64,000 nucleotides of DNA from Actinosynnema sp. ALI-1.44 (lineage in GTDB: Bacteria; Actinomycetota; Actinomycetes; Mycobacteriales; Pseudonocardiaceae), in the NCBI RefSeq assembly GCF_001984155.1, contig NZ_MTQO01000043.1, positions 124,001 to 188,000 of the forward strand, written 5' to 3'. A program made the position numbers and the translations under genes. This document shows, in pieces, positions 4,993 to 31,299 of the stretch; positions within the stretch are counted from its first letter, which is position 1; each line of letters begins with the position of its first letter. A model generated the notes under the pieces. It saw only the letters and a list, made by a program, of their open reading frames with translations. It was not told the DNA's origin and made no database searches.

Positions 4993-5001
4993 GGTGGGTT
5001 C

Positions 5002-6413: not shown

Positions 6414-6453
6414 CAGGCACGTGCGGGGCGGTGCTTCACGGGATACTGGTGTT

Positions 6454-8746: not shown

Positions 8747-8780
8747 ACTTCGGGAAGTCGGTCGGGCTACTTCGGGAAGT
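8747..8780. promoter_or_regulatory. Tandem ACTTCGGGAAGT repeats upstream of the DszC-like gene
   Basis: Two identical 12-base elements (8747-8758 and 8769-8780) start exactly 22 bases apart, about two helical turns, which suits cooperative binding of a regulator on one DNA face. The second touches the DAHP synthase stop codon. A near-identical copy lies at 6402-6413. Confidence 0.45.
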
Positions 8781-10210
8781 CACGATCCCCTGTGCTCGCG
8801 CAGCATGTTCGCCACGCGGAAGGCCAGTTCGATGGACTGGCTCGCGTTCAGCCGTGGGTCGCAGGCCGTCTCGTACCGGGTGCACAGGTGGGTGTCGAGG
8901 ACTTCCTCCGCACCGCCGAGGCATTCCGTCACGTTGTCGCCCGTCAGTTCCAGGTGGAGGCCGCCGGGGTGCACGCCTTCCTGCTTGTGGGCTTCGAAGA
9001 ACCCGACGACCTCACGGGTGATGTCGCACAGCGACCGTGTCTTGTAGCCGCTCTTGGACACGAACGTGTTGCCGTGCATCGGGTCGCACGCCCACACGAC
9101 CGAGCGGCCGGTGGACCGGACAGCTCGGAGCAACGGCGGCAGCAGGTCCGTGACGCGGTCGGCGCCCATCCGTGAGATCAGCACGAGCCTGCCGGGCACG
9201 TGGTCCGGGTCCAGCCGCTCGACGAGATCACGCAGTCCACACGGTGTGGTGGTCGGGCCGACCTTCAGCCCGATCGGGTTGGCGATCCCGGACAGGAACT
9301 CCACGTGCGCGCCGTCCAGCTGCCGGGTGCGGTCACCGATCCACACCATGTGCGCGCTGGTGTCGAACCAGGCGCCGGTGTTCTTGTCGTACCGGGTCAG
9401 CGCCTGCTCGTAGTGCGGCAACAATGCCTCGTGCGAGGTGTAGAAATGCACCTGCCGCAAGGACTGCGTGCCATTCATACCGCACGCCTGCATGAACCGC
9501 AGCGCCCACGTGATGTTGTCGGCCACCTGCTCGTAGTGCTGGCCTGCCGGGCTGCGCCGGACGAACTCCGTGTTCCACTCGTGCACCTGCTCCAGGTCGG
9601 CGAACCCCTTCGTGGTCAGGGCACGCAGGACGTTCAGCGTCGCCGACGAGTGGTGGTACGCCCGCATCAGGCGTTCCACGTCCGGGCGGCGTGCTTCCGG
9701 TGTCGGCTCGGGGGAGTTGACGATGTCCCCGCGGTACGCGGGCAACTCGATGCCGTCGATGACCTCGGTGGGTTTGCTGCGCGGCTTGGCGAACTGGCCG
9801 CCGATCCGGCCGACCTTCACCACCGGCAGGCCGGAGCCGTACGTCAGCAGGATCGCCAGTTGCAGGATCACCCGCAGCTTGCTGCGTACGCCGTGCTCGG
9901 TGCAGGAGGAGAACCGCTCGGCGCAGTCGCCCGCTTGCAACAGGAAAGCGTTGCCTTCCGCCGCGGCGGCGAGGGACCGTTGCAGCGTGCCGATCTCGTC
10001 CGGCAGCACCAGCGGCGGCTGCAGGGCGATCTCCTCGGTGACGCGTTCCACCTGGACGGGGTCGGGCCAGTCCGGCTGCTGGGTGATCGGCCGGGACCGC
10101 CACGAGTCCGGGTGCCAGGTCGACGGCGGCAGGTGCGTCCGGGTCTGCGTGGACGGGACGGGCAGGATGGGCGTGCCCAGCCGGTGTGGCTGGATGTCGA
10201 TCATTTGCAT
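8780..10210 (-). CDS. aroG: 3-deoxy-D-arabino-heptulosonate-7-phosphate synthase, class II
   Basis: 476 aa. Joins phosphoenolpyruvate and erythrose 4-phosphate at the entry to the shikimate pathway. The plant-type class II signatures are plain: LLQAGDCAERF, KVGRIGGQFAKPRS, and late GRSVVWACDPMHGNT with metal-binding Cys and His. It is the last gene of a dedicated trp operon and overlaps the end of trpA; ATG codons at 10210 and 10204 are both possible, the latter giving an ATGA overlap. A class II DAHP synthase inside a trp operon indicates extra carbon flow to chorismate for secondary metabolism rather than housekeeping synthesis. Confidence 0.95.
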   Translation of the reverse strand: MQMIDIQPHRLGTPILPVPSTQTRTHLPPSTWHPDSWRSRPITQQPDWPDPVQVERVTEEIALQPPLVLPDEIGTLQRSLAAAAEGNAFLLQAGDCAERFSSCTEHGVRSKLRVILQLAILLTYGSGLPVVKVGRIGGQFAKPRSKPTEVIDGIELPAYRGDIVNSPEPTPEARRPDVERLMRAYHHSSATLNVLRALTTKGFADLEQVHEWNTEFVRRSPAGQHYEQVADNITWALRFMQACGMNGTQSLRQVHFYTSHEALLPHYEQALTRYDKNTGAWFDTSAHMVWIGDRTRQLDGAHVEFLSGIANPIGLKVGPTTTPCGLRDLVERLDPDHVPGRLVLISRMGADRVTDLLPPLLRAVRSTGRSVVWACDPMHGNTFVSKSGYKTRSLCDITREVVGFFEAHKQEGVHPGGLHLELTGDNVTECLGGAEEVLDTHLCTRYETACDPRLNASQSIELAFRVANMLREHRGS

Positions 10211-10953
10211 GCTGACAACAGCTCCCTCACGAGCGGGCCGGGATCCCGTCCGGCGTCGAGTTCGTTGACGATGGCGCTGCCGACGATGGCGGCGTCGGCG
10301 TGCCCCCGGAGCAGCGAGACCTGCTCGGCACTGGAGATGCCGAAGCCCGCCGCGACAGGGAGATCGGTGTGGGTGCGGACCTTGGCGAGCAGTGCGTTGA
10401 CGTCCGTGGGCAGTACGGATCGGCTGCCGGTGATCCCGGTGACCGTCACGCAGTAGACGAACCCCGTCGACGCGTCGCACGCCGCCGCGATCCGGTCGTC
10501 CGGACTGGTCGGCGCCACCAGGAACACCGTTTCCAGTCCCGCGCCGGTCATGGTCTTCGCGATCTCGGCGGACTCCTCCACCGGGACATCCGGGATGATC
10601 ACGCCCGTCACGCCTGCCTGTGCCGCGTCACGGGCGAACCGCTCTGGTCCGTAGGCGAGGACCGGGTTGACGTACGTCATCAGCAGCACGGGCGCCGCCT
10701 GTTCACCGGCGATGTCGGCGGCGGCCTCCAGGCACGCCTCGGTGGTGGCTCCGGCGGCCAGCGCCCGTTGGCCCGCGCGTTGGATGACCGGGCCGTCGGC
10801 CAGCGGATCGCTGTAGGGAATGCCGAGTTCCAGCGCGGCGATGCCGCTGTTGACCAGTTTGCGGCCGATCTCCCTGGTGGTGGCCATGTCCGGGTGACCG
10901 GCCATCAGGTAGGGGATGAGCGCGAGCTCACCTTGGTTCAGCAGCAGTGTCAC
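10201..10953 (-). CDS. trpA: Tryptophan synthase alpha chain
   Basis: 250 aa, slightly short for the family. Cleaves indole-3-glycerol phosphate to indole and glyceraldehyde 3-phosphate. The catalytic Glu lies in [20 protein letters not shown], and the catalytic Asp lies in the neighbourhood of [14 protein letters not shown]. The phosphate-binding GFGISS and late AIVGSAIV segments are present. The GTG at 10953 overlaps the trpB stop by four bases. It forms the alpha2beta2 complex with the TrpB encoded just upstream. Confidence 0.95.
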
Positions 10954-12152
10954 AGCGGACCTCCGATCACCGGCATGTCGGTCGGGGACACCGACTCGAT
11001 GGTGTGCATGTCCTTGTCGCCGCGACCGGAGAAACACAGCAGGATCCGAGCGCCCGGACCCATCTCACGGGCGAGCTCACCGACGTGGTGGATCGCGTGC
11101 GACGTCTCCAGCGCGGGCATGATGCCCTCCAGCCGGGTGCAGAGCTTGAAGGCGGCGACGGCCTCGTCGTCGTTCACGGCCACATAGGACGCTCGGCCCA
11201 GTTCGGCGAGCATGGCGTGCTCCGGGCCGACGCCGGGGTAGTCCAGACCGGCGGCGATCGAGTGCGTCGGGAGCACCTGACCCTGCCGGTCCTGCAGGAT
11301 GTAGCTGAAGCTGCCGTGCAGCACACCCGCCTGGCCACCGACGGTCGCCGCCGCGTGCTGTCCCGTCTCCACGCCGAGGCCGCCTGCCTCGACGCCGACG
11401 AGGTCGACGCTCGGGTCGTCGACGAACCCGGCGAACATTCCGATCGAGTTCGACCCGCCGCCGACACAGGCGACCACGGTGTCGGGCAACGTGTTCTCCG
11501 CGGCCAGGTACTGCTCGCGGGCCTCGTCGCCGATCACCCGCTGCAACTCGCGGACCATCTCCGGGTACGGCGCGGGGCCGACGACCGAGCCGATGATGTA
11601 ATGCGTGTCGCGGACATTGGTCACCCAGTCGCGGATCGCCTCCGACGTCGCGTCCTTCAGCGTGGCCGTGCCGGAGGTGACCGGCCGGACCTCCGCGCCG
11701 AGCATCCGCATCCTGCGGACGTTCACCTCCTGGCGCCGCATGTCCTCGGCTCCCATGTAGACAGTGCACGGCAGGCCGAACCGGGCGCACACGGTCGCTG
11801 TCGCCACGCCGTGCTGACCCGCGCCGGTCTCGGCGATGATCCGTCTCTTGCCCATCCGGCGCGCCAGGACCGCCTGTCCCAACGCGTTGTTCAGCTTGTG
11901 CGCGCCGGTGTGGCAGAGATCCTCGCGTTTGAAGTGGATGGTCGCGCCGCCGAAGTGCTCGGTCAGCCGTTCGGCGTGGTACAGCGGTGTCGGCCTGCCG
12001 ACGAACGTCGCCTGGCGCGCCCGCAGCTCGCTGAGGAAACCGTTGTCCGCACGCAACTGCAGCCATGCCGTCTGCAGCTCGTCGAGCGCGGCCATCAGCG
12101 TCTCGGGGACGTACTGCCCGCCGAACCGGCCGAACCTGGTGCGTTCGCTCAT
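10950..12152 (-). CDS. trpB: Tryptophan synthase beta chain (TrpB1 type)
   Basis: 400 aa PLP enzyme making L-tryptophan from indole and L-serine. The PLP lysine lies in [15 protein letters not shown], the catalytic Glu in [13 protein letters not shown], and the phosphate-binding loop is [10 protein letters not shown]. It is a canonical, complete TrpB1, unlike the second TrpB-like protein encoded at 24649-26013. It overlaps trpC and trpA by four bases on either side, so the whole set is translationally coupled. Confidence 0.96.
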
Positions 12153-12940
12153 GCGTTGCTCAGCTCCCTGACCTTCGCCTCCGGGTCGGCGGCCCGCATC
12201 AGGACCTCGCCGACGAGTACCGCCGCGGCCCCTGCCTCGCGCAGGGCGGCCGCGTCCTTGGCTGTGTTGATCCCGCTCTCGCCGACCAGCAGCCGACCGG
12301 ATCCGACCCGGTGGCGCAGCCGCGCGGTGAGCGTCATGTCGATCCGGAAGTCCCGCAGGTCCCGGTGGTTCACGCCGATCACGGCCGCGCCCGCCGCCAG
12401 GGCCACGTCGACCTCGGCCTCGTCGTGCACTTCGACGAGGGCCTCCATGCCGAGGCCTCTGGTGTACGCGAGCAGCTCGGCCAACCGGTCCGGTGCCAGC
12501 GACGCCACGATCAGCAGCAACGCGTCCGCGCCCAGCGCACGTGCCTCGACGATCTGGTACTCGTCGTCGATGAAGTCCTTGCGCAGGACGGGAACTTCGC
12601 CTGCCGAGCGGGCGATCGGCAGGTGGTCGGGACTGCCGCCGAAACCGTCCTCGTGGGTCAGCACCGAGATCGCGGCCGCGCCGCCGCTGTTGTACGCCCG
12701 TGCGCGTTCGGCGGGCCGGTAGTCGTCTGTCAGCGGCCCTTTCGAGGGGCTGCGTGGCTTCATCTCGGCGATCACGCTCAGTCCCGGCTCCCGCAAGGCG
12801 GCGGCGAAATCGCGGGGTGCCGGTGCGGTCGACGCCAGCGCGACCAACTCGGAGAACGGCCGGACGGAACGGCGTCGTGCGGTCTGCTCGTTCGCCGTCT
12901 GGATCAGCTTGGTGAGCATCGTGGACCTGGTCATGGTCAT
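12149..12940 (-). CDS. trpC: Indole-3-glycerol phosphate synthase
   Basis: 263 aa TIM barrel catalysing ring closure of CdRP to indole-3-glycerol phosphate. The catalytic Lys lies in [13 protein letters not shown], with [31 protein letters not shown] and VGESGI segments all present. The ATG at 12940 overlaps the trpD stop by four bases; the frame is open upstream but only into trpD. There is no fused PRAI (trpF) domain and no separate trpF in the window; in actinobacteria PriA normally supplies this step. Confidence 0.95.
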
Positions 12941-13951
12941 GAGGGCACCGCCACCCGGTCCTGCGAAACAGCGATCCACCGGTTCAGCAGAGCCGTGACC
13001 GCGCCGCTGTCGATCGCCCGCGCGGCTTGAGCCAGACCGTCCTGCCAGTCGACGGCCCGCCCGGTGATCCGGAGCGCGGCGGCCGCGTTGAGCAGCACGA
13101 TGTCCCGCTTCGGCCCGGTCTCACCGGCGAAAACGCGGCGGATGATGGCGGCGTTCTCGACCCGGTCCCCACCGGCGAGCTCGGCGACGGACGCCCGTGC
13201 CAGGCCGAGGTCGGCGGGGTCGAACCGGTACGAGTGCCGCACGCCGTCGGCCATTTCCACCACGCCTGCCGGCGCGCCGAGGCTGAGCTCGTCCATGCCG
13301 TCCTCGGAGTGGAACACCAGCGCCCTGGTCACCCCCAACCGGGACAGCACCTCGGCCATCGGCACGACGGCATCGGCATTGGGCACACCCAGCGCTTGGT
13401 AACGAGCATGGGCGGGGTTGCACAACGGCCCGAGGAGATTGAACACAGTCCGGATGCCCAGCTCCTTGCGCGGTCCGGCGGCGTGCCGGAACGCGGGGTG
13501 GAACGACGGCGCGAACAGGAACACGATGCCCGCCTCGGCCAGACACCGGCCCGCTTCCTCCGGCGTCAGCTCGATCCGCACACCCAACTCCTCCAGCACG
13601 TCCGCGCTGCCGCAGCCGGAGGACGCGCTGCGGTTGCCGTGCTTGGCCACCCGCACGCCACACGCGGCCGCGACGATCGCCGACGCCGTGGAGATGTTGA
13701 ACGTGTTCAGCCTGTCGCCGCCGGTCCCGCAGGTGTCCAGGACGTCCGAGCCGAACGGCACCGGCCGGGCCATCTCCCGTGCCGTCCTGGCCATGCCCAC
13801 GATCTCGTCGACGGTCTCGCCGCGGACGGCCATCGCCATCGCCAGCCCGGCGATCCGGGCCGGGCCCGCGGCGCCGCACATGATCGTGCGCATGGCGTGC
13901 GCCGCTTCGGCCTCGCTCAGGGTCTCCCCGCGGGACACCCGTCTGATCAGG

Positions 13952-13959
<8 letters not shown>
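12937..13959 (-). CDS. trpD: Anthranilate phosphoribosyltransferase
   Basis: 340 aa. Transfers phosphoribose from PRPP to anthranilate. The PRPP loop [17 protein letters not shown] and [21 protein letters not shown] are characteristic, as is the [10 protein letters not shown] segment and GPLCNPAH. It overlaps trpG by eight bases and trpC by four, within the trpEGDCBA-aroG unit. Confidence 0.95.
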
Positions 13960-14520
<561 letters not shown>

Positions 14521-14524
<4 letters not shown>

Positions 14525-15897
14525 TGAACTGCCTCCGCTTGTCGGACGGCGGTGAACATGGCGCGGGCTTTGTGCAGCGTTTCGCGGTACTCGGCGGTCG
14601 CGTCGGAGTCGGCGACCACGCCCGCACCGGACTGGACGTGCACCTTGCCGTCCGCCACGACGATCGTGCGCAACGCGATCGCCAGGTCCGCCGCGCCGTC
14701 GTAGCCGACGAACCCCAGTGCGCCGCCGTACACGCCCCGCCGCTCCGGCTCCAGCTCGGCGATGATCTCCATCGCCCTGATCTTCGGCGCGCCGCTGAGC
14801 GTGCCCGCGGGGAACGTCGACCGCAGCGCGTCAAGCCCGTCCGCCTCATCGGTCAGCTCACCGGCCACAGTGGACGAGATGTGCATCACGTGGGAGAAGC
14901 GCTCGATCTCCATCAGCTTCTCCACCCGCACGCTGCCCGGCACGGCGACCCGGCCCAGGTCGTGGCGGCCGAGGTCGACGAGCATGACGTGCTCCGCGCA
15001 TTCCTTCTCGTCGGCGAGGAGTTCCTGTTCCAGCGCGAGGTCCGTGTCCAGGTCCTGGCCGCGGGCCCGTGTCCCGGCCAACGGCCTGGTCTCGATCCGC
15101 CTGCCAGTCGTCTTGACCAGCAGTTCGGGCGAGCAACCGACGACGTGCCGTCCGCCGCCCAGGCTTAGGTGGTACATGTACGGTGACGGGTTGATCGCCC
15201 GTAGGTGCCGGTACAGGTCGAGGGGTGTGGCGGTCAGCGGCTTGCTGAACCGCTGGGACAGCACGATCTGGAACGCGTCGCCCGCCGCGATGTACTCGCG
15301 GGCCCGTTCGACCCGTGCCTCGAACTCGTCCTGCGTCACGTTGGACTGCCAGCCGTCCAGCAGGTCCCCGTCCGCCCGGCAGAGCGAGACCACCGGGCGG
15401 TGTTCGGCCGGGCTGCTGATCTTCTCCCGCATCACCGCGATCCGGTCCAGTGCGTCCTGATAGGACTCGACGGCCGGGCGGTGCGCGGTCACCAGGATCA
15501 GCCTGCGGGTGGCGTGGTCGAAGACGGCGAGGTCCTCGACGCTGAGGAACGCCGCCTCCGGCAGACCGGGCGCCGGGCCGTCCGCCTCGGGGAGCCGCTC
15601 GAAGTGCCGGGCGGTCTCCCAACCGAGGTACCCGACCGCGCCGCCGAGGAACGGCGGCAGACCAGGAACCGGAGCGACCTGTTGTGCGGCGAGCGATCGC
15701 AGAGTGGCGAGCGGGTCGCCCGCCGGGAGGGTGAGCGGGCGCGGGCGGTGCCCGACGTACGAGTACCTCCCGACATCTCCGGTCACCGGAACGCTTTCCA
15801 ACAGGAAGCCGGGCTCGTCCTCACGGCACAACCGCTCGAAGACGGTCACCGGAGTCAGGGCGTCGGCCAGGAACTCTTCGTGTACGGGCACAAGCAT
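14521..15897 (-). CDS. trpE: Anthranilate synthase component I
   Basis: 458 aa, converting chorismate to anthranilate. The C-terminal catalytic domain has FQIVLSQRF, SPELLV, PLAGTRARG and the FPAGTLSGAPK motif. The N-terminal tryptophan-binding motif LLES (residues 32-35, followed by GRYSYVG) is intact, so the enzyme is probably still inhibited by tryptophan, unlike some secondary-metabolism copies that have lost it. Only three bases separate it from the upstream P450 gene, tying primary precursor supply to the tailoring genes in one transcript. Confidence 0.95.
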
Positions 15898-17244: not shown

Positions 17245-20112
17245 TCAGAGCTTGCCGAGGGACCACGTGACGTCTTCGAGGAGCTGGTCGATCACGACCT
17301 TGTCGGTCTGGTGGTGCATGATGCACGACCGGACGACCAGGCCCTCCTCGGGCAACGTGGTGGTGGACAGGTAGACGCTGCCGCGCGAGTTGATCAGCTC
17401 GGCCAGCCGTTCGTTGCGGCGCGCCTGCTCGGCGCGGTCGGCCGAGCGGGCACCGAACCCGACGGTCGGCAGGTGCGGCTCGCCCCGGTCGACCACCTTG
17501 ATGCCGTCCAGCTGCGCCAGCCGGTCGGCCAGGTCCTCGGCCAGGTCGAGCTTCTCGTCCAGGCAGCGTTCGAACGCCTTGATGCCGTGCAGTTTGATCG
17601 GCAGCCACGCGGTGAGGCCGCGTGCCTCGCGGGTGAGCTCCGGGCCGTAGTTGCAGAAGTCGACGAAGTTGTCGTCATTGGACAGCTCGGGGACGTACGC
17701 GGCGCTGCCGATCTCGAACGCCGCCTTGAGCTGTGACTGGTCCTTGACCAGCAGCGCGGAGATGCCGTGCGGCAGGAACAGCGACTTGTGCGCGTCCACC
17801 GCGATCGAGTCCGCCTCTCCGCTGCCCGCCAGCAGCGCCTTGCCCCTGCCGGTGAGCCGGAAGAACCCGCCGAAGCACGCGTCGGCGTGCATCCAGATGT
17901 TGTAGCGGGCGCAGAAGTCCGCCAGCTGGGCCAGGTCGTCGACCGCGCCCGTGTTGGTGGTGCCCGCGGTGCCGACGACGCAGGCCGGGACGTACCCGCG
18001 GTCGATGTCGTGGTTGACCGCGCGCCGCAACTCGTCGACGTCGATGCTGTAGTCACGGTTGACGCCGATGCTGCGCACCCGGTCACCGGGTATCCCGACC
18101 ATCCGGGCCGCCTTGGCGACTGAGAAGTGGCCCTGGCTGGACACGTACACGGTCGCCCGTTGCTGTGCCGCTTCACCGGCCTGCGCCAGAGCACAACGCA
18201 ACGCCATGAAGTTCGCGATCGACCCGCCCGTGGTCAGGTAGCCGAACGAACCCGCGCCGTAGCCGAGCATCGAGCAGAACCACCTGATCACGTTCGTCTC
18301 GATCTGGGTGAACCCGGGAGACGCCGCCCACGCGCCGGGGAACCGGTTGAGGGTGCGGGAGATGAACTCACCGACCGCGGCCTGGAACAGCCCGCCGGAC
18401 GGGACGTGCGCCATGAACCCGGGATGCGGGTGGATCATCCCGTTGGTCATCGCCTTGTCGAAGATCTCCGAGAGCAGCACCTCGAGGCTGGTGCCGTGCT
18501 GGGGAACGTCGTCCTCACGCAACAACGCGCCGATCAGCCTGCCGTCCGCGTCGTCGGAGTTGTGCAGGTAGGACGCGGGGTACTTGCCCGTCGCCAAGTC
18601 CTCCTGGTAGCGCAACAACCGGGCCGACACCGTGTCGAGCAGGTACTTCTGCTGGTCGAGTGCCAGGTCCAAAGTAGATGTCTGACCCAGCCGCGAGCCC
18701 GCCGTGGCACACTCGGCCGGGTAGGCGTCCAGTATCTTGTGCGCCTCGGTGTGGACGTCCATCCTGCTGCACAGGTCGTCCACGATGCCCCGCTGCTGTT
18801 CGTGCTTGGAGACCACCTCGTTGTACGGGATGGTGGTGAACGCGACCATGTGGTACAGCGGGATGAAGTCGCCCGGGTGCCGCAGGTGCAGCTGCTTCTC
18901 CAGCTTGTTGCGGGCGTGGAAGCCGGTGTCGTCGGTGTGGGACTTCAGCTCGGCCCGCATCGCCAGCGACAGGTCCGCGATCGCGTCACCGGGTGCCTTG
19001 CGGGCGTCGGTGAAGTCCGCGAGTGCCGTGCGGACCGCGGTCTCGAGGTCGTGCCTGGCCAGCCGCTTGTCCAGGATCTCGAAGAACGTGCGGACGTCCT
19101 CGAAGCTGCAGTTGATGCCCTGGCCGTAGAACGGCACCATCGTGTGCGCCGAGTCGCCGATGAGCACCGCGAGCTCGTGGTGGTACGGGAAGCACTTGAT
19201 GGTCTTCAACGACGACGGCGGCGCGGCCAGCACGTCCTTGGTCAGCTGCGGCAGGAACTCGACGATGTCGGGGAAGTGCTCCGCGAACAACGCCCGCACG
19301 TCCGCCTCGGTCCTGAGCTTGGCCCACGTCGGCTGCTCGGGGTCGTCGGACGTGAGCGGCATGAACAGGCCCGTGGTGTAGCTGCGGTCCACATTGGGTT
19401 GTGACAGCAGGACGAAGTCGCCGCGTGGCCACACGTGCAGGCCGTGGATCTCGCTGTCGGGCCTGCTGGGGTCACGCAACGCCTGGAGCAGCGCGTAACC
19501 GCCATCCGCCGACGGCGGCATCTTCAGCTCGGCGAACCCGTCGGTGATGTACTCCTGCGAGATGCTCATCCGCGCGCCGCGGCGTGACATCTCCTGCCGG
19601 ACGATGCTGTTGGCGCCGTCGCAGCCGATCAGGACGTCGCCGCGGCTCTCCCGGATGCCGTTCGAGCTGGTGGCGAACGTCGCCGTCGCGGTGGCGGGAT
19701 CCGCGCGGATGCACTCGTGCTCGAAGTGGATCCGCGCGCCCGCCTTCTCGGCCTCGTCCATCAGCGTGCGGTGCAGCAGTCCACGGGGGATGGACAGCAG
19801 GTGGTGGTCGTCCGCTGTGCCGTACCGTTGGTAGGACAGCGTTCCGTCCGCGTGGTGGATGACTCGTTGCGGTAAGGGCACCCCGTTCTGGTAGAGGACC
19901 TCGATGAGGTGCGGTTCGAGCGACTTCAGGCCGCGGCGGGTCAGGGTCAGGTTGAAGGAGTGGCCCTTGCCGTGGTGCGGACCACGGAAGTCGGTTCCAC
20001 GCTCGAAGAGTTCGACCTGGAAGGCACGCCTGCGCAGTTCGATCGCGACCAAGCACGCGACCGGGCCCGCGCCGACGATGACCGCCTTCGCCTGGTGGGT
20101 GTTTCCGGACAT
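17245..20112 (-). CDS. Kynurenine 3-monooxygenase-like / PLP aromatic amino acid decarboxylase fusion
   Basis: 955 aa, two complete enzymes in one chain. Residues about 8-460 are an FAD monooxygenase: dinucleotide fold VIVGAGPVACLVAIEL (11-26), substrate-side SFNLTLTRRGLKSL (52-65), GCDGANSIVR (163-172), GDSAHTMVPFYGQG (319-332), and the KMO-type C-terminal IPLYHMVAF (417-425). Residues about 480-955 are a group II decarboxylase: His662 in SSQGHFSV, HADACFGG (742-749) and PLP Lys776 in VDAHKSLFLPHG. Expected chemistry is kynurenine to 3-hydroxykynurenine to 3-hydroxykynurenamine, but the true substrate is unproven. The ATG at 20112 follows a strong AGGAGG. Both halves look intact and the frame runs through without stop, so this is a real fusion rather than two mispredicted genes. 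Confidence 0.92.
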   Translation of the reverse strand: MSGNTHQAKAVIVGAGPVACLVAIELRRRAFQVELFERGTDFRGPHHGKGHSFNLTLTRRGLKSLEPHLIEVLYQNGVPLPQRVIHHADGTLSYQRYGTADDHHLLSIPRGLLHRTLMDEAEKAGARIHFEHECIRADPATATATFATSSNGIRESRGDVLIGCDGANSIVRQEMSRRGARMSISQEYITDGFAELKMPPSADGGYALLQALRDPSRPDSEIHGLHVWPRGDFVLLSQPNVDRSYTTGLFMPLTSDDPEQPTWAKLRTEADVRALFAEHFPDIVEFLPQLTKDVLAAPPSSLKTIKCFPYHHELAVLIGDSAHTMVPFYGQGINCSFEDVRTFFEILDKRLARHDLETAVRTALADFTDARKAPGDAIADLSLAMRAELKSHTDDTGFHARNKLEKQLHLRHPGDFIPLYHMVAFTTIPYNEVVSKHEQQRGIVDDLCSRMDVHTEAHKILDAYPAECATAGSRLGQTSTLDLALDQQKYLLDTVSARLLRYQEDLATGKYPASYLHNSDDADGRLIGALLREDDVPQHGTSLEVLLSEIFDKAMTNGMIHPHPGFMAHVPSGGLFQAAVGEFISRTLNRFPGAWAASPGFTQIETNVIRWFCSMLGYGAGSFGYLTTGGSIANFMALRCALAQAGEAAQQRATVYVSSQGHFSVAKAARMVGIPGDRVRSIGVNRDYSIDVDELRRAVNHDIDRGYVPACVVGTAGTTNTGAVDDLAQLADFCARYNIWMHADACFGGFFRLTGRGKALLAGSGEADSIAVDAHKSLFLPHGISALLVKDQSQLKAAFEIGSAAYVPELSNDDNFVDFCNYGPELTREARGLTAWLPIKLHGIKAFERCLDEKLDLAEDLADRLAQLDGIKVVDRGEPHLPTVGFGARSADRAEQARRNERLAELINSRGSVYLSTTTLPEEGLVVRSCIMHHQTDKVVIDQLLEDVTWSLGKL

Positions 20113-20243: not shown

Positions 20244-20900
20244 TCAGCTCTCGGTGGCCTGTGCGGCCAGGGCCCCGGCGTCGGGCACGACAGCGCCGTT
20301 GGGGCCGTCGGTGAACATGCCGGGGTGGCGTGACCGCATCAGACCGATCAACCGGTCGTAGTCGACATCGTCGAAGTGTCCGTGCTCGGTGAGGAACTCC
20401 ATCTGTTCCCCGCCGGTGAACGGGTGCAGGCGCGCGTCGGACTCGCCGTCGAACTCCAGCGGTGGCATCCGGTACAGCCGGCACAGCACCTTGTTGAACA
20501 CCGGGGTGACGTACAGCCACCGCCCGCCGAGCTGGATCGACGTCAGCCAGTGCACGAACGTGTCGCCGCCGACCAGCGCCTTGAGCGCCGGAGACGCCAG
20601 GTGGTTGCGGACCTCGCTGACGACGATCCTGCTGGGGATCCCGACGGCACGGACCGCCGCCGCGTACAGGATCGACTTGTGCGCGCAGAATCCCTGTCCA
20701 CGGGCGGCGATCGCACTGGCCCGCAGGCCCTCCCTGGACAGATCCTGACCGCTGACTTCGTAGTGCAGGCCGTCGCGAACCGCGTAGAACAGCCGGACGG
20801 CCCGGTCTTTGCGCGTTGTGGCGTCGCCGATGGCCTTGGCGACGAAGTCCTGGACGCGTTGGTCGCGGTAGTCCAGGAACTCGGTGGGGTGGGTCACCAC
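20244..20900 (-). CDS. Transglutaminase-fold protein, candidate amide synthase
   Basis: 218 aa. The Cys-His part of the transglutaminase triad is clear: C72 in RGQGFCAHKSILYAAAVRAVGIPSR and H117 in DTFVHW. The third residue, normally Asp in a WxxVDPT motif, reads Thr132 in WLYVTPVFN, so the triad is altered. In andrimid biosynthesis the transglutaminase homologue AdmF joins an amine to a carrier-bound acyl group. With a ligase, carrier protein and dehydrogenase in the same operon, a comparable amide-forming role is inferred. GTG codons at 20900 and 20897 are possible starts; the second overlaps the upstream stop as GTGA. Confidence 0.75.
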   Translation of the reverse strand: MVTHPTEFLDYRDQRVQDFVAKAIGDATTRKDRAVRLFYAVRDGLHYEVSGQDLSREGLRASAIAARGQGFCAHKSILYAAAVRAVGIPSRIVVSEVRNHLASPALKALVGGDTFVHWLTSIQLGGRWLYVTPVFNKVLCRLYRMPPLEFDGESDARLHPFTGGEQMEFLTEHGHFDDVDYDRLIGLMRSRHPGMFTDGPNGAVVPDAGALAAQATES

Positions 20901-22057
20901 GACGATCCTCCGTTCTCGCCCAGATCCGTGGAACCGATGCCCATGACGGCGGCGACCTTGTTGCGCTGGATCTCCGAGGTCCCGGAGTAGATGGTCCCGG
21001 CGATCGCGTCACGCAGGCCGCGCTCGATCCCGGTGGACGACAGGTATCCGGCGCCGCCGAACACCTGCACGGCGGTCCGCGCGGTGGCCACGTTGGCCTC
21101 GCTCACCACGATCTTGGTCATCGCCACGCGTGCGGTGACGTCCTCGCCCGCGACCATCCTGGCGGTGGTGTCGTGCAGCCATTTCCGGGCGGTCTCGACA
21201 CTGATCCGCATGTCGACGATCTTGTGGGCGACTGCCTGGAACGCGCCGATCGGCTGTCCGAACTGGACACGACCGCGGGCGCGGCGCGCGCACGCGGCCA
21301 ACCGGCGCCGCATCTGGCCGACCTGCCCGGCAGCGATGAACAGGATCTCGCGCGCCATCACGTGCGACAGCAGCCACGAGCCGCCACCGACCTGACCGAC
21401 GACGTGATCGGCCGGGACACGCACGTCGTTCAGCTCCGCCGTGCCCAGCGGTGAGCACCGCAGGCCCATCTTTCCCAGCGGCTCGCTCAGCGTGAACCCC
21501 TTGGTGTCACGCGGAACAGCGAACGCCGTCAGCCCGGTGAAAGTGCCAGGTTGTCCGGTCACTGTGTACACCACGACCAGGTCGGCGATGGGTCCGTTGG
21601 AGATGAACGCTTTGCGTCCGTTGAGGACGTAATGGTCGTTGTCCGCTACGGCTGTCGTGCTCATCGCGAGGGCGTCCGACCCGGCCTGCGGCTCGGTGAT
21701 CGCGTGGGCGCCGATGATCCGTCCCGTGGTGACGGCGTGTTCGTAGCGTTCCCGCAAGGCAGGGGAGCCGAACCGGGCCAGGGGAACCGCGCAACTGGCC
21801 AGCTGGGTGGCCACGCTGAACCCGAGGCTCGCGTCGTCGCTGCCGTGACCGAGGCCCTCCAGTGCCGCGGTGAGCTGGGGCAGCGTCTGGTCGCAGCGCC
21901 TCCGGTCGCTGGTGAACGGCAGTCCGAAAAGGCCGGTCGCGGCGATGAGATGCCATTTCTCGTGGGAGAACTCGGCCGACTGGTCGTCGGCCGTCACACC
22001 GGTGCCGAGCTTCTCACCGAGCTCAGCCATCCGCTCGTACCACTCCTCCGAGCGCAT
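20894..22057 (-). CDS. PltE/RedW-like acyl-ACP dehydrogenase
   Basis: 387 aa FAD acyl-CoA dehydrogenase fold. The C-terminal IYSGTSEIQRN has Ser where short-chain enzymes have their catalytic Glu; instead E237 in AREILFIAAGQ matches the position used by isovaleryl-CoA and prolyl-carrier dehydrogenases. ISNGPIADLVVVY and SEPLGKMGLRC resemble PltE/RedW, which oxidise prolyl-S-carrier to pyrrolyl-S-carrier. The ATG at 22057 follows AAGGAGG; upstream in-frame codons belong to a repeat hairpin. It is coupled to the transglutaminase-like gene and lies below the carrier and ligase genes. Pyrrole formation is therefore plausible, not shown. Confidence 0.85.
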   Translation of the reverse strand: MRSEEWYERMAELGEKLGTGVTADDQSAEFSHEKWHLIAATGLFGLPFTSDRRRCDQTLPQLTAALEGLGHGSDDASLGFSVATQLASCAVPLARFGSPALRERYEHAVTTGRIIGAHAITEPQAGSDALAMSTTAVADNDHYVLNGRKAFISNGPIADLVVVYTVTGQPGTFTGLTAFAVPRDTKGFTLSEPLGKMGLRCSPLGTAELNDVRVPADHVVGQVGGGSWLLSHVMAREILFIAAGQVGQMRRRLAACARRARGRVQFGQPIGAFQAVAHKIVDMRISVETARKWLHDTTARMVAGEDVTARVAMTKIVVSEANVATARTAVQVFGGAGYLSSTGIERGLRDAIAGTIYSGTSEIQRNKVAAVMGIGSTDLGENGGSSW

Positions 22058-22084
22058 GAAATACCTCCTTCCGCAGGTGGGACA

Positions 22085-22128
22085 TCGTGAGTGGTTACCG
22101 GGGTCCTGACCCCGACAACCACTCACGA
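22085..22128. terminator. Intra-operon hairpin of the TCGTGAGTG repeat family
   Basis: A 21-position stem with two mismatches (arms 22085-22105 and 22108-22128, 2-base loop) sits between the EctC-like gene and the dehydrogenase, which read in the same direction. Its outer arms match those of the hairpin at 7315-7364. It may partly terminate the transcript and so set different levels for the upstream and downstream genes. Confidence 0.6.
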
Positions 22129-22133
22129 GGGGT

Positions 22134-22508
22134 TCAGTAGCAGGAATAGCCGTCCTGGCAGAGGGAGTGCTTTTCCTCGCCGGACAACGGCGGGTTGAAC
22201 ACGCTGATCAGGTGCAGGTCCTCCGATGCAGCTGCGGTCAGGGTGTGTGCGTCGTGCTGGTCGAGCGCGTATAACACCCCCGGTTCGATCGGGTGCGTCA
22301 CGCCGTCGCTCGTGACCACCTCGCCTTTCCCGGAGATGCAGTAGCAGGCTTCCAGGTGCTTGCGGTACTGCAGCTTCGAGCTGGTGCCCGCGTGCACGAC
22401 GGTGTGGCAGACGGTGAATCCCATGCCGTCGTCGGCGACGAGCAGCCGGTAGCTGTCACCGTTTCCCCAGTCGACCCTCTTGACGGTTTCCCTGGTGCGA
22501 ATGAACAT
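22134..22508 (-). CDS. Orphan ectoine-synthase-like cupin cyclase
   Basis: 124 aa single-domain cupin closely resembling L-ectoine synthase EctC over its whole length: early RLLVADDGMGF, VVHAGT, YRKHLEACYCISGKGEV, PIEPGVLYALDQHDAH and late FNPPLSGEEKH. The iron-ligand positions known in EctC (Glu, Tyr, His) are kept as E53, Y80 and H88. EctC closes a ring by attack of an amine on an amide carbonyl with loss of water. No ectA, ectB or ectD is present, so it is more likely a pathway cyclase acting on an N-acyl amine than an osmolyte enzyme. It lies 74 bases below the carrier-protein gene. Confidence 0.88.
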   Translation of the reverse strand: MFIRTRETVKRVDWGNGDSYRLLVADDGMGFTVCHTVVHAGTSSKLQYRKHLEACYCISGKGEVVTSDGVTHPIEPGVLYALDQHDAHTLTAAASEDLHLISVFNPPLSGEEKHSLCQDGYSCY

Positions 22509-22582: not shown

Positions 22583-22837
22583 CTAGGCCTGCGGCTGCGG
22601 CGCGGCGCCGAGGAACTCGGCGATCGAGGCGACCGACCGGAAGTAGTCCGGGCGCAGGTCGGCGGCGTCGATGTCGACACCGAACTCGGCGGACAGCCCG
22701 CTGACCAGGCGGACGAGACTGAGGCTGGTGATCAGCCCGCTGGCGATCAGGTCGTAGTCGTCCGGCAGGTCGGCCGGGGTGACGTCGGGTGCGAAGTTGC
22801 GCAGCACCCATTCCTTGATCTCTTCGGTCGGCGGCAT
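22583..22837 (-). CDS. Free-standing acyl/peptidyl carrier protein
   Basis: 84 aa four-helix carrier. The phosphopantetheine site is Ser38 in SGLITSLSLVRLV, where the common DSL reads TSL. The acidic helix-2 and helix-3 surfaces and the length fit discrete carriers such as PltL. It lies one base downstream of the adenylating ligase and is its obvious partner. It should carry the activated amino acid for the dehydrogenase and then the amide-forming enzyme. Confidence 0.9.
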   Translation of the reverse strand: MPPTEEIKEWVLRNFAPDVTPADLPDDYDLIASGLITSLSLVRLVSGLSAEFGVDIDAADLRPDYFRSVASIAEFLGAAPQPQA

Positions 22838-22838
22838 G

Positions 22839-24287
22839 TCAGATCCTTTCTGTGTAACGGGTTTTCACGGCCGTGCGGTCGACCTTGCCGGTCGACGTCT
22901 TCGGCAGCGCCTCGTCGACGATCGTGATCGTGGTGGGGATGGCTGTCCTGGCAAGGCCCTCCATGCACAGCTGGCGCAGCTTGAGGCTGTTGAGCGCGGA
23001 TCCCTCCCTGCGGCTGACGACCGCGTGCAGCACGTTGCCCGCCAGGTCGTCGGGCACGGCGACGACCGCGACCTCCGCGACGTCCGGGTGGCGCTGGATG
23101 ACGTGCTCGACCTCGGCCATGTTGGTGCGGGCGCCGCGGACCTTCACGTGGAAGTCGGCGCGGCCTTCGAGGGTGAGTACCCCGTGCTCGTCCCGGTGCA
23201 CGACGTCGCCGGTCCGGTAGAACACGGTGTCGCCGTGGGGGACGAATCGGTCCCGGGTGACGTTCGGGTCGAGGTAGCCGCTGGCCTGGAACGGCGTGGA
23301 CACCCACAGCTCACCCGAGCCGGGGCCGTCGAGCAGGTCACCGTCGCAGGTGATGACGCGCGTGTCGACGCCGGGAAGCGGGGAACCGATCGGCAGCTGC
23401 CGCTCGGCCGCGTCGGTGATCTCGTACATGGTCGAGTCGTTGGTCTCGGTACAGCCGTAGAGGTTGTAACGGCGGGCGGCGGGGAACATCCGCGCCAGCT
23501 CGGGCAGCAGCCGCGGCGGCGCGGAGTCACCGGTCACCACCACGTGCTGGACGTCGGGGAACCAGACGGGGCCGATGCTGAGGTCGGCCAGCAACCGGTA
23601 GACCATCGGCACGGCCTGCACGACGGTGATCCGGTGGCTGTCGACCAGGTGCGCGAGGTAGCTCCCGTCGGTGGCGAACTGGGGTTCGACGAGTGTCACG
23701 GTCGCGCCCCCGGCCAGCGACGCCCACACGTCCAACAGCGAGAGATCGAAGTTCAGCGGCGCGTAGGACAACACCCGTGCCCCCGGCCGGATGTCGAACG
23801 CGGTCGCTGCCCAGTCGAAGAAGTTGTCCACACCGCGTGGTGACAGCGGAACGAGCTTGGGCACACCGGTCGACCCGGACGTGGTGAGGATCAGCAGCGA
23901 GTCCCCGGCGGGCGGTGCGTGGTACACGCCTTCGGGCCGGGTGGGCTCGCTCAGCACAGGGCTCGGCGTGACCAGCCGTGACACACCCGCTGCGTTGGCG
24001 AGCATGGCCAACGCCGCGCTGCCCAGGTCGCGGGACGGCAGTACGACCGTGTGACCCGCGCGCCACAGGGCGATCAGCAGGACCACCAGCTCCGGTGACT
24101 TGTCCGCGGACACCGCGACCCGCTCACCGCGCTGGAGACCTGACGAAGCCAGCTCGGCCGTGGCGTCGTCGACCATCCGGGCGAGATCGGAATAGGTTAT
24201 GGTCACGTCCCTCCAGCGGAGCGCGGGCGCGCCCGGCCGTTCGGCGATCCGCTCCTTCAGCCGCGCGAGGAACTTCTGAGAAGGCAT
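22839..24287 (-). CDS. Amino-acid adenylating ligase (stand-alone A domain)
   Basis: 482 aa ANL-family enzyme. Core motifs are present: LTTSGSTGVPKL (134-145), YGCTETNDS (277-285), the FYRTGD motif and the C-terminal catalytic Lys468 in PKTSTGK. FDLS (180-183) puts Asp181 where A domains bind the alpha-amino group, so an amino acid rather than an aryl or fatty acid is the likely substrate. With the adjacent carrier and PltE-like dehydrogenase it forms the kind of trio (PltF-PltL-PltE) that makes pyrrole-2-carboxyl-carrier from proline. Proline specificity is inference from context. It is the first gene of the long leftward operon. Confidence 0.88.
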   Translation of the reverse strand: MPSQKFLARLKERIAERPGAPALRWRDVTITYSDLARMVDDATAELASSGLQRGERVAVSADKSPELVVLLIALWRAGHTVVLPSRDLGSAALAMLANAAGVSRLVTPSPVLSEPTRPEGVYHAPPAGDSLLILTTSGSTGVPKLVPLSPRGVDNFFDWAATAFDIRPGARVLSYAPLNFDLSLLDVWASLAGGATVTLVEPQFATDGSYLAHLVDSHRITVVQAVPMVYRLLADLSIGPVWFPDVQHVVVTGDSAPPRLLPELARMFPAARRYNLYGCTETNDSTMYEITDAAERQLPIGSPLPGVDTRVITCDGDLLDGPGSGELWVSTPFQASGYLDPNVTRDRFVPHGDTVFYRTGDVVHRDEHGVLTLEGRADFHVKVRGARTNMAEVEHVIQRHPDVAEVAVVAVPDDLAGNVLHAVVSRREGSALNSLKLRQLCMEGLARTAIPTTITIVDEALPKTSTGKVDRTAVKTRYTERI

Positions 24288-24648
24288 GGTCGGCTCCCGT
24301 GTCGTGTTCCCGCCAATTCGCTGGGAGGAAAAGGAAAACTCCCTCGGCCCGAGTCGAATGTGGCGTCGATGCGATGTACAAACCCCCGGCTCACCCCGGT
24401 ATTCTCGGTTGTGACGTGGATCATATCGAATGGTGGGCGACTTGACTGAGTGTGCTCGCCGAGGTGGTCACGGGCTTGTCGACACGTGTCCGGCCGGTGT
24501 AGACGGCGGCCGTTTGTCGTTGGGTGGCACCGAGTTGGTCAAGTGAGAGCGATGTGGGTGCACCGCATTGCCGGTCTGTCCCGTGCGTGCGTTCACTGGT
24601 ATGGCGCGCAGATCACTGACACCAAGGCCGAATGCGGGAGACGACGAC
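24288..24648. promoter_or_regulatory. Main divergent promoter region of the cluster
   Basis: 361 bases between the ligase gene and the TrpB2-like gene must hold promoters for both cluster arms. A perfect 10-base palindrome GACACGTGTC (24481-24490) is followed by a CCGGCCGG element, and the sequence around 24410-24445 is less GC-rich than the surroundings. No coding sequence is convincing here; in-frame codons upstream of 24649 lack a ribosome site. Confidence 0.5.
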
Positions 24649-26013
24649 ATGGGTGAGCAGATCAAGTTCCAGCTCCGCGAGGACGACATTCCGTGGACGT
24701 GGCAGAACGGTGCCGCGGACTTACCCGGAATGGCACCGATTCTCGACCCGGCGACCGCCGCACCGCTCAAACGGGACGATCTCGCGCGCACCATGCCGGA
24801 ACCGTTGGTCGAGCAGGAGCTGAGCACCGCGCCCGAGTTCGAGATCCCCGAAGCGGTGCGCGAGATCTACCGCCAGTGGCGCCCGACGCCGATGTTCCGG
24901 GCGCGCAGGCTCGAGAAGGCACTCGGCACGCCCGCCCGCATCTACTACAAGTACGAGGGCGTCGCGCCGACCGGCAGCTTCAAACCGAACTCGGCCGTTC
25001 CGCAGGTGTACTACAACAAGCTGGCCGGACGGCAGCGGCTGGTGGTCGAGACCGGCGCGGGCCAGTGGGGCAGCGCGATCGCGTTCGCCGCCGCGCTGTT
25101 CGACATGACCGCGAAGGTCTACATGGTGAAGGTCAGCTACCAGCAGAAGCCGTACCGGCGGTCGATCATGGAGGCGTTCGGCACCGAGTGCACGCCGAGC
25201 CCGAGCGCCGAGACCGCGGCGGGCCGGGCGATCCTGGCGGAGAACCCCGACCACCCCGGCAGCCTCGGCGTCGCGAAATCCGAGGCGCTCCAGGCGGTTT
25301 TCGCCGACGGCAGCAGCGGCTACGCCCGCGGCAGCGCCCTCAACCACGTCTGCGCGCACCAGTCGGTCATCGGCCAGGAAGCCATCAAGCAGATGGACCT
25401 CGCCGACGACTACCCCGACATCGTGATCGGCTGCGCGGGCGGCGGCAGCAACCTGGCCGGGCTGTCGCTGCCGTTCTTGCGTGAGAAGCAGCGCACAGGC
25501 AAGGATGTGCGGCTGATCGCGGCCGAGCCCGTGGCCTGCCCGACGCTCACCCAGGGCCGGATCGCCTACGACTACGCCGACACACGCCAGCTCACGCCGC
25601 TGTTCCGCACCCACACCCTCGGCCACCGGTTCATCCCGCCCGCTGTGCACGCAGGCGGGCTGCGCGCGCACAACATCGCGCCACTGGTCAGCCGGGCCGT
25701 GGAGGACGGGCTGATGGAAGCCGTCGCGCTGCGCCAGACCGAGTGTTTCCAGGCCGGGGTGATGTTCGCCCGTTCGGAGGGGATAGTGCCCGCGCCCGAG
25801 TCGACGCACGCCGTCCGGGCCGCTGTCGACGAGGCGCTGCGCTGCCGTGAGGAAGGCGTCGCCAGGACGATCCTGTTCGGGCTGTCCGGCCACGGGAACT
25901 TCGACATGGCCGCCTACGAGCAGTACTTCGCCGGGCGGCTGCGTGACGACACCCTCTCGGCAGAGGCGCTCGCCAGCGGCCTGGCCAGCATCCCGCAACT
26001 GGTGGCGGTCTGA
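24649..26013 (+). CDS. TrpB2-like PLP enzyme
   Basis: 454 aa, the length of the TrpB2 branch, with its long N-terminal extension. YYKYEGVAPTGSFKPNSAVPQ places the PLP lysine at 112, ETGAGQWGSA holds the catalytic Glu, and GCAGGGSNLAGL binds phosphate. In TrpB proteins a His normally precedes the lysine (GSHK or GAHK); here it is Phe111, as in threonine synthases. It does not pair with TrpA and may carry out a different beta-replacement, or recycle indole. GGGAG precedes the ATG at 24649. It leads the rightward arm and is followed after one base by the exporter gene. Confidence 0.85.
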   Translation: MGEQIKFQLREDDIPWTWQNGAADLPGMAPILDPATAAPLKRDDLARTMPEPLVEQELSTAPEFEIPEAVREIYRQWRPTPMFRARRLEKALGTPARIYYKYEGVAPTGSFKPNSAVPQVYYNKLAGRQRLVVETGAGQWGSAIAFAAALFDMTAKVYMVKVSYQQKPYRRSIMEAFGTECTPSPSAETAAGRAILAENPDHPGSLGVAKSEALQAVFADGSSGYARGSALNHVCAHQSVIGQEAIKQMDLADDYPDIVIGCAGGGSNLAGLSLPFLREKQRTGKDVRLIAAEPVACPTLTQGRIAYDYADTRQLTPLFRTHTLGHRFIPPAVHAGGLRAHNIAPLVSRAVEDGLMEAVALRQTECFQAGVMFARSEGIVPAPESTHAVRAAVDEALRCREEGVARTILFGLSGHGNFDMAAYEQYFAGRLRDDTLSAEALASGLASIPQLVAV

Positions 26014-26014
26014 C

Positions 26015-26914
26015 ATGGTGCTGTTCCTGGCGCTCGGCCTGATCTGGGGCGGCAGCCACACGTTCATCACCCTGTCGCTCAACGGCCTGACCCCCAGCCA
26101 GCTCGTGCTGGCACGGCTGGTGCTCGGCGCGGTCGTGCTGGTGGCGGTCGTCCGGCTGCGCGGGATCAGGCTGCCCGCGTTCGGCGTGGTCTGGGCTCAC
26201 ATCACCATGGCCGCGATACTCGGCCTCGTCGCGCCGTTCTTACTGCTCGCCTGGGGACAGCAGCACACGAGCGCGGGCATGGCGGGTGTGCTCATCGGCG
26301 CGATGCCGTTGATCACCCTGGCGTTCGCGACTATGACCCTGCCGTCCGAACGTGCGACCGTGCGCAAGACCTTCGGGTTGCTCATCGGGTTCGTCGGCGT
26401 GGTGCTGGTGGTGGCGCCGTGGGGTGCCGCGCCGGGGACACTGGGTGGACAGGTCGCCGTGCTCGGCGCGGCGGCGTGTTACGCGGCTCAGGCCGTGTAC
26501 ATCAGGAAAGTGCTGTCCGGACTGGACATCGCCCCGCTAGCGCTGGCCGCCGCGCAGGTCATGGCGGCGACTGTGTTGCAGGCGTTGGTCACGCCCCTGT
26601 TCGAATGGCACACGCCGACGTTCACGTGGCCGGTCGTAGTGAGTATCGTGCTGCTCGGCACGGTCGCGACAGGGGCGGGTTACGTGTTGTACTTCCGGCT
26701 GATCCGCGATCACGGCGCCACCACCGCGTCCGCCGTGAACTACCTGGTGCCGGTGGCCGCTGTCGTGATCGGCGTTCTGACGCTGTCGGAACCGGTCACC
26801 TGGAGCATGGCCGCCGGGGCAGTCATCGTCCTGTTGGGTCTCGCCGTCGCCGAGAACCGACTCGGTTCGGCACCCGCCCGACCCCAGCGCGCGGGGAAGG
26901 TGACGACCCGGTAG
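26015..26914 (+). CDS. EamA-family (DMT) exporter
   Basis: 299 aa with ten hydrophobic segments in two EamA repeats. LGLIWGGSHTFITLSL at the N-terminus is typical of RhaT/YdcZ-like drug/metabolite transporters that export amino acids and related small molecules. The ATG lies one base after the TrpB2-like stop, implying co-expression. Export of the final product or of a tryptophan-related intermediate is the probable role. Confidence 0.85.
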   Translation: MVLFLALGLIWGGSHTFITLSLNGLTPSQLVLARLVLGAVVLVAVVRLRGIRLPAFGVVWAHITMAAILGLVAPFLLLAWGQQHTSAGMAGVLIGAMPLITLAFATMTLPSERATVRKTFGLLIGFVGVVLVVAPWGAAPGTLGGQVAVLGAAACYAAQAVYIRKVLSGLDIAPLALAAAQVMAATVLQALVTPLFEWHTPTFTWPVVVSIVLLGTVATGAGYVLYFRLIRDHGATTASAVNYLVPVAAVVIGVLTLSEPVTWSMAAGAVIVLLGLAVAENRLGSAPARPQRAGKVTTR

Positions 26915-29621: not shown

Positions 29622-29998
29622 TGCGGTGGTCCCATGTGGCGTTGAACTGTGTGGATGTCGGGCGCACCGAGGCGTTCTACCGGCAGTTCGGGTTCAGCCG
29701 TGTTGCCGCGTTCGGCGACATCGTGTTCATCGGCAACGGATCCGTGCACCTGGAGCTGTTCCCCGCGGTCGATGGGTTGGCGGTGTCCGGTTCGCGGGAC
29801 GGACCTGGCGCGGCGGGCGTTGTCCGTCACCTGGCTTTCCAGGTCGACGACGTCGACGCGGTGGTTGCCGGGCTGGACGCCGAGGTCACTTGGGGGCCGC
29901 TGGGGTTCGACGAGTTCGTTCCCGGGTGGCGGACGGTGTGGGTCCGGGACCCGGACGGGATCGTCGTCGAGGTCAGTCAGGGCTTTCCTGCTTCCTAG
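29621..29998 (+). CDS. VOC/glyoxalase-fold protein
   Basis: 125 aa with two beta-alpha-beta-beta-beta repeats. The four metal-ligand positions of the vicinal-oxygen-chelate family appear as H5, E45, H70 and E117, so a metal-dependent activity (lyase, isomerase or dioxygenase) is possible; bleomycin-resistance-type binding is the alternative. The start shares one base with the GMC stop (TGATG). Its last 26 bases overlap the convergent XRE gene, which marks the right edge of this arm. Confidence 0.78.
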   Translation: MRWSHVALNCVDVGRTEAFYRQFGFSRVAAFGDIVFIGNGSVHLELFPAVDGLAVSGSRDGPGAAGVVRHLAFQVDDVDAVVAGLDAEVTWGPLGFDEFVPGWRTVWVRDPDGIVVEVSQGFPAS

Positions 29999-31150: not shown

Positions 31151-31173
31151 GTGATCACCCGGCGGCCTCGCCG
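31142..31173. repeat. Direct repeat copy A (29 of 32 bases match copy B)
   Basis: This 32-base block covers the start and ribosome site of the Cys-rich protein gene. It recurs with three mismatches at 32581-32612 upstream of the neighbouring XRE-TPR gene. Confidence 0.7.
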
Positions 31174-31299
31174 TCGACCGCCGGTGGTCCATTGTATGAG
31201 CTGTCACGGTGCTGCGGGCATGTCTGAATGGTCACGTGTGGAACGCTAGAAAACGCCGACGGCACGATCTTGTCACTGTGACAAGGTCACCTGATCGGG

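Follow-up and report, generated by a model that had tools for sequence, protein, structure and literature searches.

A natural gene fusion of a kynurenine 3-monooxygenase-like flavoprotein and a PLP-dependent decarboxylase in actinobacteria, and its predicted role in forming a methylated kynurenamine

In the pyrrolobenzodiazepine pathways of anthramycin, sibiromycin and porothramycin, a kynurenine branch employs a kynurenine 3-monooxygenase (KMO) of the ORF23 type together with a methyltransferase of the SibL/ORF19 type. Passages of the SibL report describe methylation of 3-hydroxykynurenine at C4 to give 3-hydroxy-4-methylkynurenine, with 3-hydroxyanthranilate not being accepted (PMC4426599). 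A natural joining of KMO to another biosynthetic enzyme is presented in excerpts of the porothramycin literature, where por21 is a fusion of a nonribosomal peptide synthetase (NRPS) with a KMO (PMC4194701). The decarboxylated counterpart of 3-hydroxykynurenine, 3-hydroxykynurenamine, appears in excerpts of PMC8295276 as a known mammalian metabolite, and these excerpts mention neither a bacterial cluster nor a dedicated fused enzyme or C-methyl group. Here, we analyzed a stretch of 64,000 nucleotides from Actinosynnema sp. ALI-1.44 (hereafter, the window), in which a single gene at 17245–20112 of the minus strand encodes a KMO-like flavoprotein joined to a group II pyridoxal 5′-phosphate (PLP)-dependent decarboxylase; the partner of this KMO is thus a decarboxylase and not, as in por21, an NRPS.

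The fusion gene starts with an ATG at 20112, which is preceded by AGGAGG, and ends with a TGA at 17245. Its 955 residues comprise a KMO part (1 to about 444), a linker (about 445–480) and a decarboxylase part (about 481–955); the N-terminal half with the start of the linker is encoded by 18721–20112, and the C-terminal half by 17248–18720, both on the minus strand. The mechanical open reading frame extends upstream to 21012, and the start at 20112 is supported by the fusion of Kibdelosporangium persicum, whose stop-to-stop frame is 955 codons long. Pfam assigned residues 9–378 to FAD_binding_3 (PF01494; 71.7 bits, cut-off 22) and residues 532–887 to Pyridoxal_deC (182.6 bits, cut-off 27). All 12 bins of the frame, those of the linker and junction included, showed a codon-position GC content typical of coding sequence, and the plus-strand frame over the same interval contains several stops. 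A sequence-only reading of this stretch had proposed one 955-residue frame with a KMO-like and a group II decarboxylase half, and this is borne out by the Pfam assignments, by the matches to solved structures and by the residues described below, the gene lying on the minus strand.

That reading had also suggested looking for the same fusion elsewhere, allowing that homologs might always be two separate genes joined here by an artefact. Nine intact fusions were found in two actinobacterial families. Six of the 297 sampled Pseudonocardiaceae genomes, scored with two best candidates per genome, carry the full-length gene (G000, G027, G065, G187, G176 and G136, the source genome included), with identities of 91% in G027, 85% in G065 (apparently K. 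persicum, listed in the genus of the window) and about 60% in G187, G176 and G136. The other three are among 341 genomes of a second family (G798, G892 and G965). No further fusion was detected among 394 class-wide genomes, the source included, at a limit of 1e-100; G537 and G367 were matched there by the KMO alone. G224 holds a copy with a frame change near residue 681, beside methyltransferase and P450 genes, and G068 a partial copy reduced to decayed pieces (L054/L055 loci). The two halves occur as separate adjoining genes on two plasmids, of Streptomyces sp. 3211 (as annotated) and of Embleya sp. NBC_00896, where the KMO frame stops before the decarboxylase. These split pairs might favor a frameshift or assembly error as the origin of the fused gene, but nine intact copies in two families with linkers of differing length, and a coding signal continuous through the junction, leave that explanation no probability; the fusion is a natural, conserved gene.

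The dN/dS ratios from three pairings of the three Kibdelosporangium sequences were 0.21–0.23 for the KMO half, 0.13–0.21 for the decarboxylase half and 0.14–0.55 for the short linker. Linker length varies among the nine intact fusions, and in G965 (L100:292-3435) about 90 extra proline-rich, repeat-like residues stand between the halves; such variation is expected of two independent domains. In the decarboxylase tree, an Ensifer gene joins the fused and split decarboxylases in one clade (100/100); the six fused rows included form a group (95/93) whose sister is the split pair (92/91 for all eight). The seven fused rows of the KMO tree do not form a group, and a single fusion origin was not rejected (p-AU 0.226). 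Neither tree includes G798, G892 or G965, and the decarboxylase tree also lacks G224. A phage collection yielded two records with partial matches at about 27% identity.

The comparison with known families, also suggested by the sequence-only reading, placed the N-terminal half with KMO: the best solved match was the KMO 6lkd with 244 bits, while the best non-KMO reached 45.7 bits. In pfKMO, we take R84, Y98, N369 and Y404 to be the residues that hold the substrate carboxylate. The equivalents of R84, Y98 and Y404 (R83, Y97 and Y420 of the fusion) are kept in all 26 aligned KMOs, so that three of the four stand in the window protein; at the N369 position, occupied there by Met385, the alignment has Asn in 20 sequences, Met in four (window, G027, K. 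persicum and G136) and His in the two split relatives. In a tree of these 26 KMOs, the 16 fused, split and pyrrolobenzodiazepine-type sequences form one clade (100/100), although the program flags long branches meeting at the split between these 16 and the remaining ten (three encoded beside a tryptophan 2,3-dioxygenase (TDO), five further Pseudonocardiaceae and two proteobacterial). Family and residues together suggest kynurenine as the substrate of the KMO half and 3-hydroxykynurenine as its product.

For the C-terminal half, the closest solved structure was the group II decarboxylase 4obu (213 bits), presumably the tryptophan decarboxylase of Ruminococcus gnavus, which was left out of the decarboxylase tree. 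Both have the same type of catalytic residues, but they differ at aligned positions that we take to line the pocket (for example, NIH to NRF and W to C). A tyrosine in the catalytic loop and a PLP-stacking histidine mark the decarboxylases of this family, and their exchange (Tyr to Phe in the loop) marks aldehyde synthases. The catalytic residues of the fusion, K776, the PLP-stacking H662, D744 and the loop residue Y806, are kept in 9/9 fusions. Near its fusion cluster, G136 carries another group II decarboxylase gene (Pyridoxal_deC; L071:5328-6962), separate from the fusion.

The gene at 175–1308 on the minus strand of the window offered a further clue to the substrate. Its product (METHYLTRANSFERASE) matched SibL with 413 bits among solved proteins, the next match having 92, and a SibL-like gene was found in all nine fused clusters when the window genes were compared by tblastn with the nine intact-fusion loci (33–64 kb each, that of G892 being limited by a 34 kb contig). 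According to passages of PMC4426599, His335 of SibL contacts the carboxyl group, Tyr288 and Asp292 the amino-acyl part, and Tyr134 and Tyr295 the 3-hydroxyl group of the substrate. All five are kept in the eight complete copies from fused clusters; the ninth, of K. persicum, is cut by the locus end after its first half, in which Y134 is present. Five of the six SibL hydrogen-bonding residues are kept in the window copy. The SibL-like partner supports, independently of the fusion, a tie of the pathway to 3-hydroxykynurenine chemistry. Because the carboxylate- and amino-acyl-binding residues are retained, methylation probably falls between hydroxylation and decarboxylation, and the predicted amine would be 3-hydroxy-4-methylkynurenamine rather than 3-hydroxykynurenamine.

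The surrounding genes are shared to a large extent among the nine clusters. Directly after the fusion in 9/9 clusters lies a cytochrome P450 gene (15901–17232), followed in the window by trpE for anthranilate synthase I (14521–15897; 9/9), trpG (13952–14524; 8/9), trpD (12937–13959; 7/9), trpC (12149–12979; 6/9), trpB (10950–12152; 7/9) and a class II DAHP synthase gene (8780–10480; 9/9), all on the minus strand. Further along are genes for a DszC-like flavin monooxygenase of the acyl-CoA-dehydrogenase fold (7373–8617, minus; 8/9), a GST-fold protein (6421–7323, plus; 8/9), an aldo/keto reductase (5474–6310, minus; 8/9), an MFS transporter of uncertain start (3437–5392, minus; 6/9 by tblastn, with MFS genes detected by Pfam in the G136 and G965 loci as well) and a WrbA-type NAD(P)H:quinone reductase (1388–2044, plus), which was typed in the window only and has a homolog in 9/9 clusters. 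P450, trpE, DAHP synthase, methyltransferase and quinone-reductase homolog are thus common to all nine. The K. persicum cluster (L073:9256-16966) has three DszC-like paralogs where the window has one. At the broken-fusion locus of G224, the shared core genes present are the P450, methyltransferase and flavin monooxygenase genes; of these genes, the P450 alone recurs beside the split pair of Streptomyces sp. 3211, and none beside that of Embleya. The sequence-only reading had spoken of a private trp operon, which agrees with trpE, G, D, C and B standing with a DAHP synthase gene beside the fusion while all six Pseudonocardiaceae genomes with an intact fusion have another trpD above the cut-off at a different site.

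These data led us to propose, as a reading we consider reasonably probable, that the fusion is bifunctional and belongs to a natural-product pathway conserved in actinobacteria, in which hydroxylation is followed by methylation and then by decarboxylation. The additional shikimate and tryptophan genes would raise the supply of tryptophan, which TDO and formamidase encoded elsewhere in the genome would convert to kynurenine. The KMO half would then form 3-hydroxykynurenine, the SibL-like enzyme, acting in trans on the intact amino acid, would yield 3-hydroxy-4-methylkynurenine, and the decarboxylase half would release CO2 to give 3-hydroxy-4-methylkynurenamine, a step that would replace the kynureninase step of pyrrolobenzodiazepine pathways. 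The P450, the DszC-like monooxygenase and the WrbA-type reductase might oxidize and handle the resulting aminophenol, with the reductase dealing with quinones. Since methylation would separate the two fused steps, joining the two activities in one protein may favor their co-expression or an assembly of three enzymes, and may not be a matter of simple channeling.

Several observations weigh against this proposal. The decarboxylase matches among the best 25 of 56 NCBIfam rows are far below cut-off and the closest solved relative is, as we presume, a tryptophan decarboxylase, so that homology does not fix the substrate of this half. In the KMO half, the Asn position is Met in six of the nine fusions and Asn in three, with His in both split relatives; in the methyltransferase, SibL Tyr99 is replaced by Phe in 12/12 aligned copies, two of pyrrolobenzodiazepine type included. 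An AlphaFold model of the fusion, based on an alignment of two rows, had a pLDDT of 34 and was not used. As for kynurenine supply, TDO occurs in all nine fused genomes, but it is common in Pseudonocardiaceae anyway (243/297) and its presence is therefore uninformative as support. No listed TDO match falls within any of the nine fused clusters, and kynurenine would have to be supplied by TDO genes outside them, whereas two genomes with pyrrolobenzodiazepine-type loci (G537 and G707) have a TDO about 18–19 kb from the KMO; G224, with its broken fusion, gave no TDO match in the genome. Finally, a second paralogous route, in which methylation follows decarboxylation, is a less probable alternative.

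The sequence-only reading had the two fused activities, if both act on the tryptophan/kynurenine line, work consecutively to give 3-hydroxykynurenamine. Kynurenine-line chemistry is supported, while the direct succession is doubtful, as SibL-like methylation, encoded in 9/9 clusters, probably intervenes. If the steps were nevertheless consecutive, the SibL-like enzyme would methylate the amine later or act on a side branch. The physical fusion does suggest coupled steps and the residues of both halves would fit, but the retention of the carboxylate- and amino-acyl-binding residues in 8/8 complete SibL-like copies is what one expects if methylation precedes decarboxylation, and we regard the directly consecutive order as unlikely. 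Still less credible, and in our view very improbable, is a route in which kynurenine is first decarboxylated to kynurenamine and the KMO half then hydroxylates the amine: the loss of the KMO Asn in 6/9 fusions might point this way, yet the three other presumed carboxylate ligands are invariant in the alignment and a SibL-type partner needs 3-hydroxykynurenine.

A different aromatic amino acid could be the substrate, for example if a tryptophan decarboxylase were joined to an indole-oxidizing flavoenzyme like VioC. The presumed activity of 4obu and the lack of a listed TDO match in the fused clusters would suit this, as would the NCBIfam result, in which VioC was the best flavoprotein among the best 25 of 56 rows and no KMO model appeared. 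The VioC score was 122 against a cut-off of 760, however, KMOs led the solved matches by about 200 bits, and a SibL-like partner accompanies the fusion in every cluster, which makes this reading quite unlikely. Aldehyde synthases also belong to the family of the PLP half (6eeq and 6jrl are among the matches of the C-terminal half), and an oxidative deamination could produce an aldehyde that closes to an 8-hydroxy-4-quinolone or quinoline. Y806 and H662, which are presumably exchanged in aldehyde synthases, are kept in 9/9 fusions, and we hold this outcome to be hardly probable.

Compared with the pyrrolobenzodiazepine kynurenine branch, the fused clusters have KMOs of the same clade, a methyltransferase whose closest solved relative is SibL and, as expected, the same 3-hydroxy-4-methylkynurenine intermediate; unlike it, the window cluster has its KMO fused to a decarboxylase and contains P450 and trp genes. 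The A–T plus C–A–T–R NRPS pair (adenylation, thiolation, condensation and reductase domains) used to recognize pyrrolobenzodiazepine pathways was not found among the 42 window proteins scanned with Pfam, which showed no condensation or terminal-reductase domain. A C–A–T–R protein is present in L059 and L062, directly upstream, with an A–T protein and a methyltransferase in L062; in the other loci called pyrrolobenzodiazepine-type, the label rests on two adenylation-domain matches upstream of the KMO, and in G537 and G707 also on the TDO in the vicinity. The label also draws on the gene order ORF21-22-23 as given in excerpts of PMC4194701. No kynureninase gene was found near the window cluster, the match of the source genome being on another contig. 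Kynureninase exceeded the cut-off in four of seven genomes (G000, G027, G176 and the broken-fusion G224), with G065 just under it and G187 and G136 weak, and its absence is therefore no marker of fused genomes.

Beyond the shared genes, the clusters carry modules that differ by lineage. Close matches to the window genes between 20244 and 26914 were found only in the three Kibdelosporangium clusters. On the minus strand, these encode a transglutaminase-core protein (20244–20900), a flavoprotein like prolyl-carrier-protein dehydrogenases (20894–22126), an ectoine-synthase-like cupin (22134–22508), a carrier protein (22583–22837) and a stand-alone amino-acid adenylation domain (22839–24287); on the plus strand lies an EamA transporter gene (26015–26914). 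A TrpB-like PLP enzyme gene (24583–26013, plus; TIGR01415 over cut-off), divergent from the adenylation-domain gene, is likewise kept in these three clusters. In G224, the dehydrogenase and the adenylation domain have distant relatives (44% and 35%, respectively). The closest relatives of the flavoprotein are prolyl-carrier-protein dehydrogenases (4irn, 5zw0 and the PigA and RedW models): 4irn was its best solved match with 244 bits, followed by 6cxt, named butyryl-CoA dehydrogenase, and its gene adjoins those for an adenylation domain and a carrier. It differs from them in scoring below the NCBIfam equivalog cut-offs (308 of 500 and 297 of 650). The code of the adenylation domain, read by eye, gave no clear match to the proline code and was not used, so the term prolyl derives from the dehydrogenase.

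In Kibdelosporangium, the amine is probably joined to a prolyl-derived acyl group on a carrier, for whose formation the adenylation domain, the carrier and the dehydrogenase-like enzyme would be responsible, with the transglutaminase-core protein as candidate for amide formation and the cupin as candidate cyclase. In G187 and G176, genes for a ThcOx-like oxidase and a YcaO protein lie about 1–3 kb upstream of the fusion, in G187 behind one regulator gene; none of the other seven fused loci gave a YcaO or ThcOx match. In G187 (L051:13570-17416), the YcaO cyclodehydratase and ThcOx-like oxidase constitute a non-NRPS module beside the kynurenine-derived amine pathway. Lodopyridone, presumably a chloroquinoline–thiazole, was considered for the YcaO genes and set aside, no link being found among the literature matches listed. 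Shared genes are common to the clusters while partner genes differ by lineage, which suggests one core joined to partner modules that vary. We tentatively envisage an actinobacterial alkaloid class with an oxidized 3-hydroxy-4-methylkynurenamine core (an aminophenol or quinone amine) and exchangeable modules, of prolyl type in Kibdelosporangium, a YcaO/ThcOx azole in G187 and G176, and others elsewhere, although this is less probable than the core pathway itself.

If the proposed pathway is correct, it would add a decarboxylative branch to the 3-hydroxykynurenine route that yields a methylated kynurenamine building block. Among the matches listed from openly licensed literature, none describes this cluster under a bacterial KMO–decarboxylase fusion, a kynurenamine cluster or a kynurenine decarboxylase, and none reports a bacterial enzyme or cluster for a methylated kynurenamine. 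The same fused gene in the same kind of cluster across actinobacteria points to an uncharacterized family of amine natural products, for which it could serve as a specific probe in genome mining, and the predicted order of hydroxylation, methylation and decarboxylation is directly testable.

Elsewhere in the window, three consecutive helix-turn-helix regulators (HTH_31), one with DUF5753, are encoded on the minus strand at 29973–33886, and a 1525-residue protein encoded at 40793–45370 combines a protein kinase, an nSTAND1 domain and many WD40 repeats. A ketosynthase–acyltransferase–acyl carrier protein (KS–AT–ACP) polyketide synthase module on the minus strand (57040–60174) lies close to a gene for an FAD monooxygenase (55859–57052) and apparently represents a separate locus.

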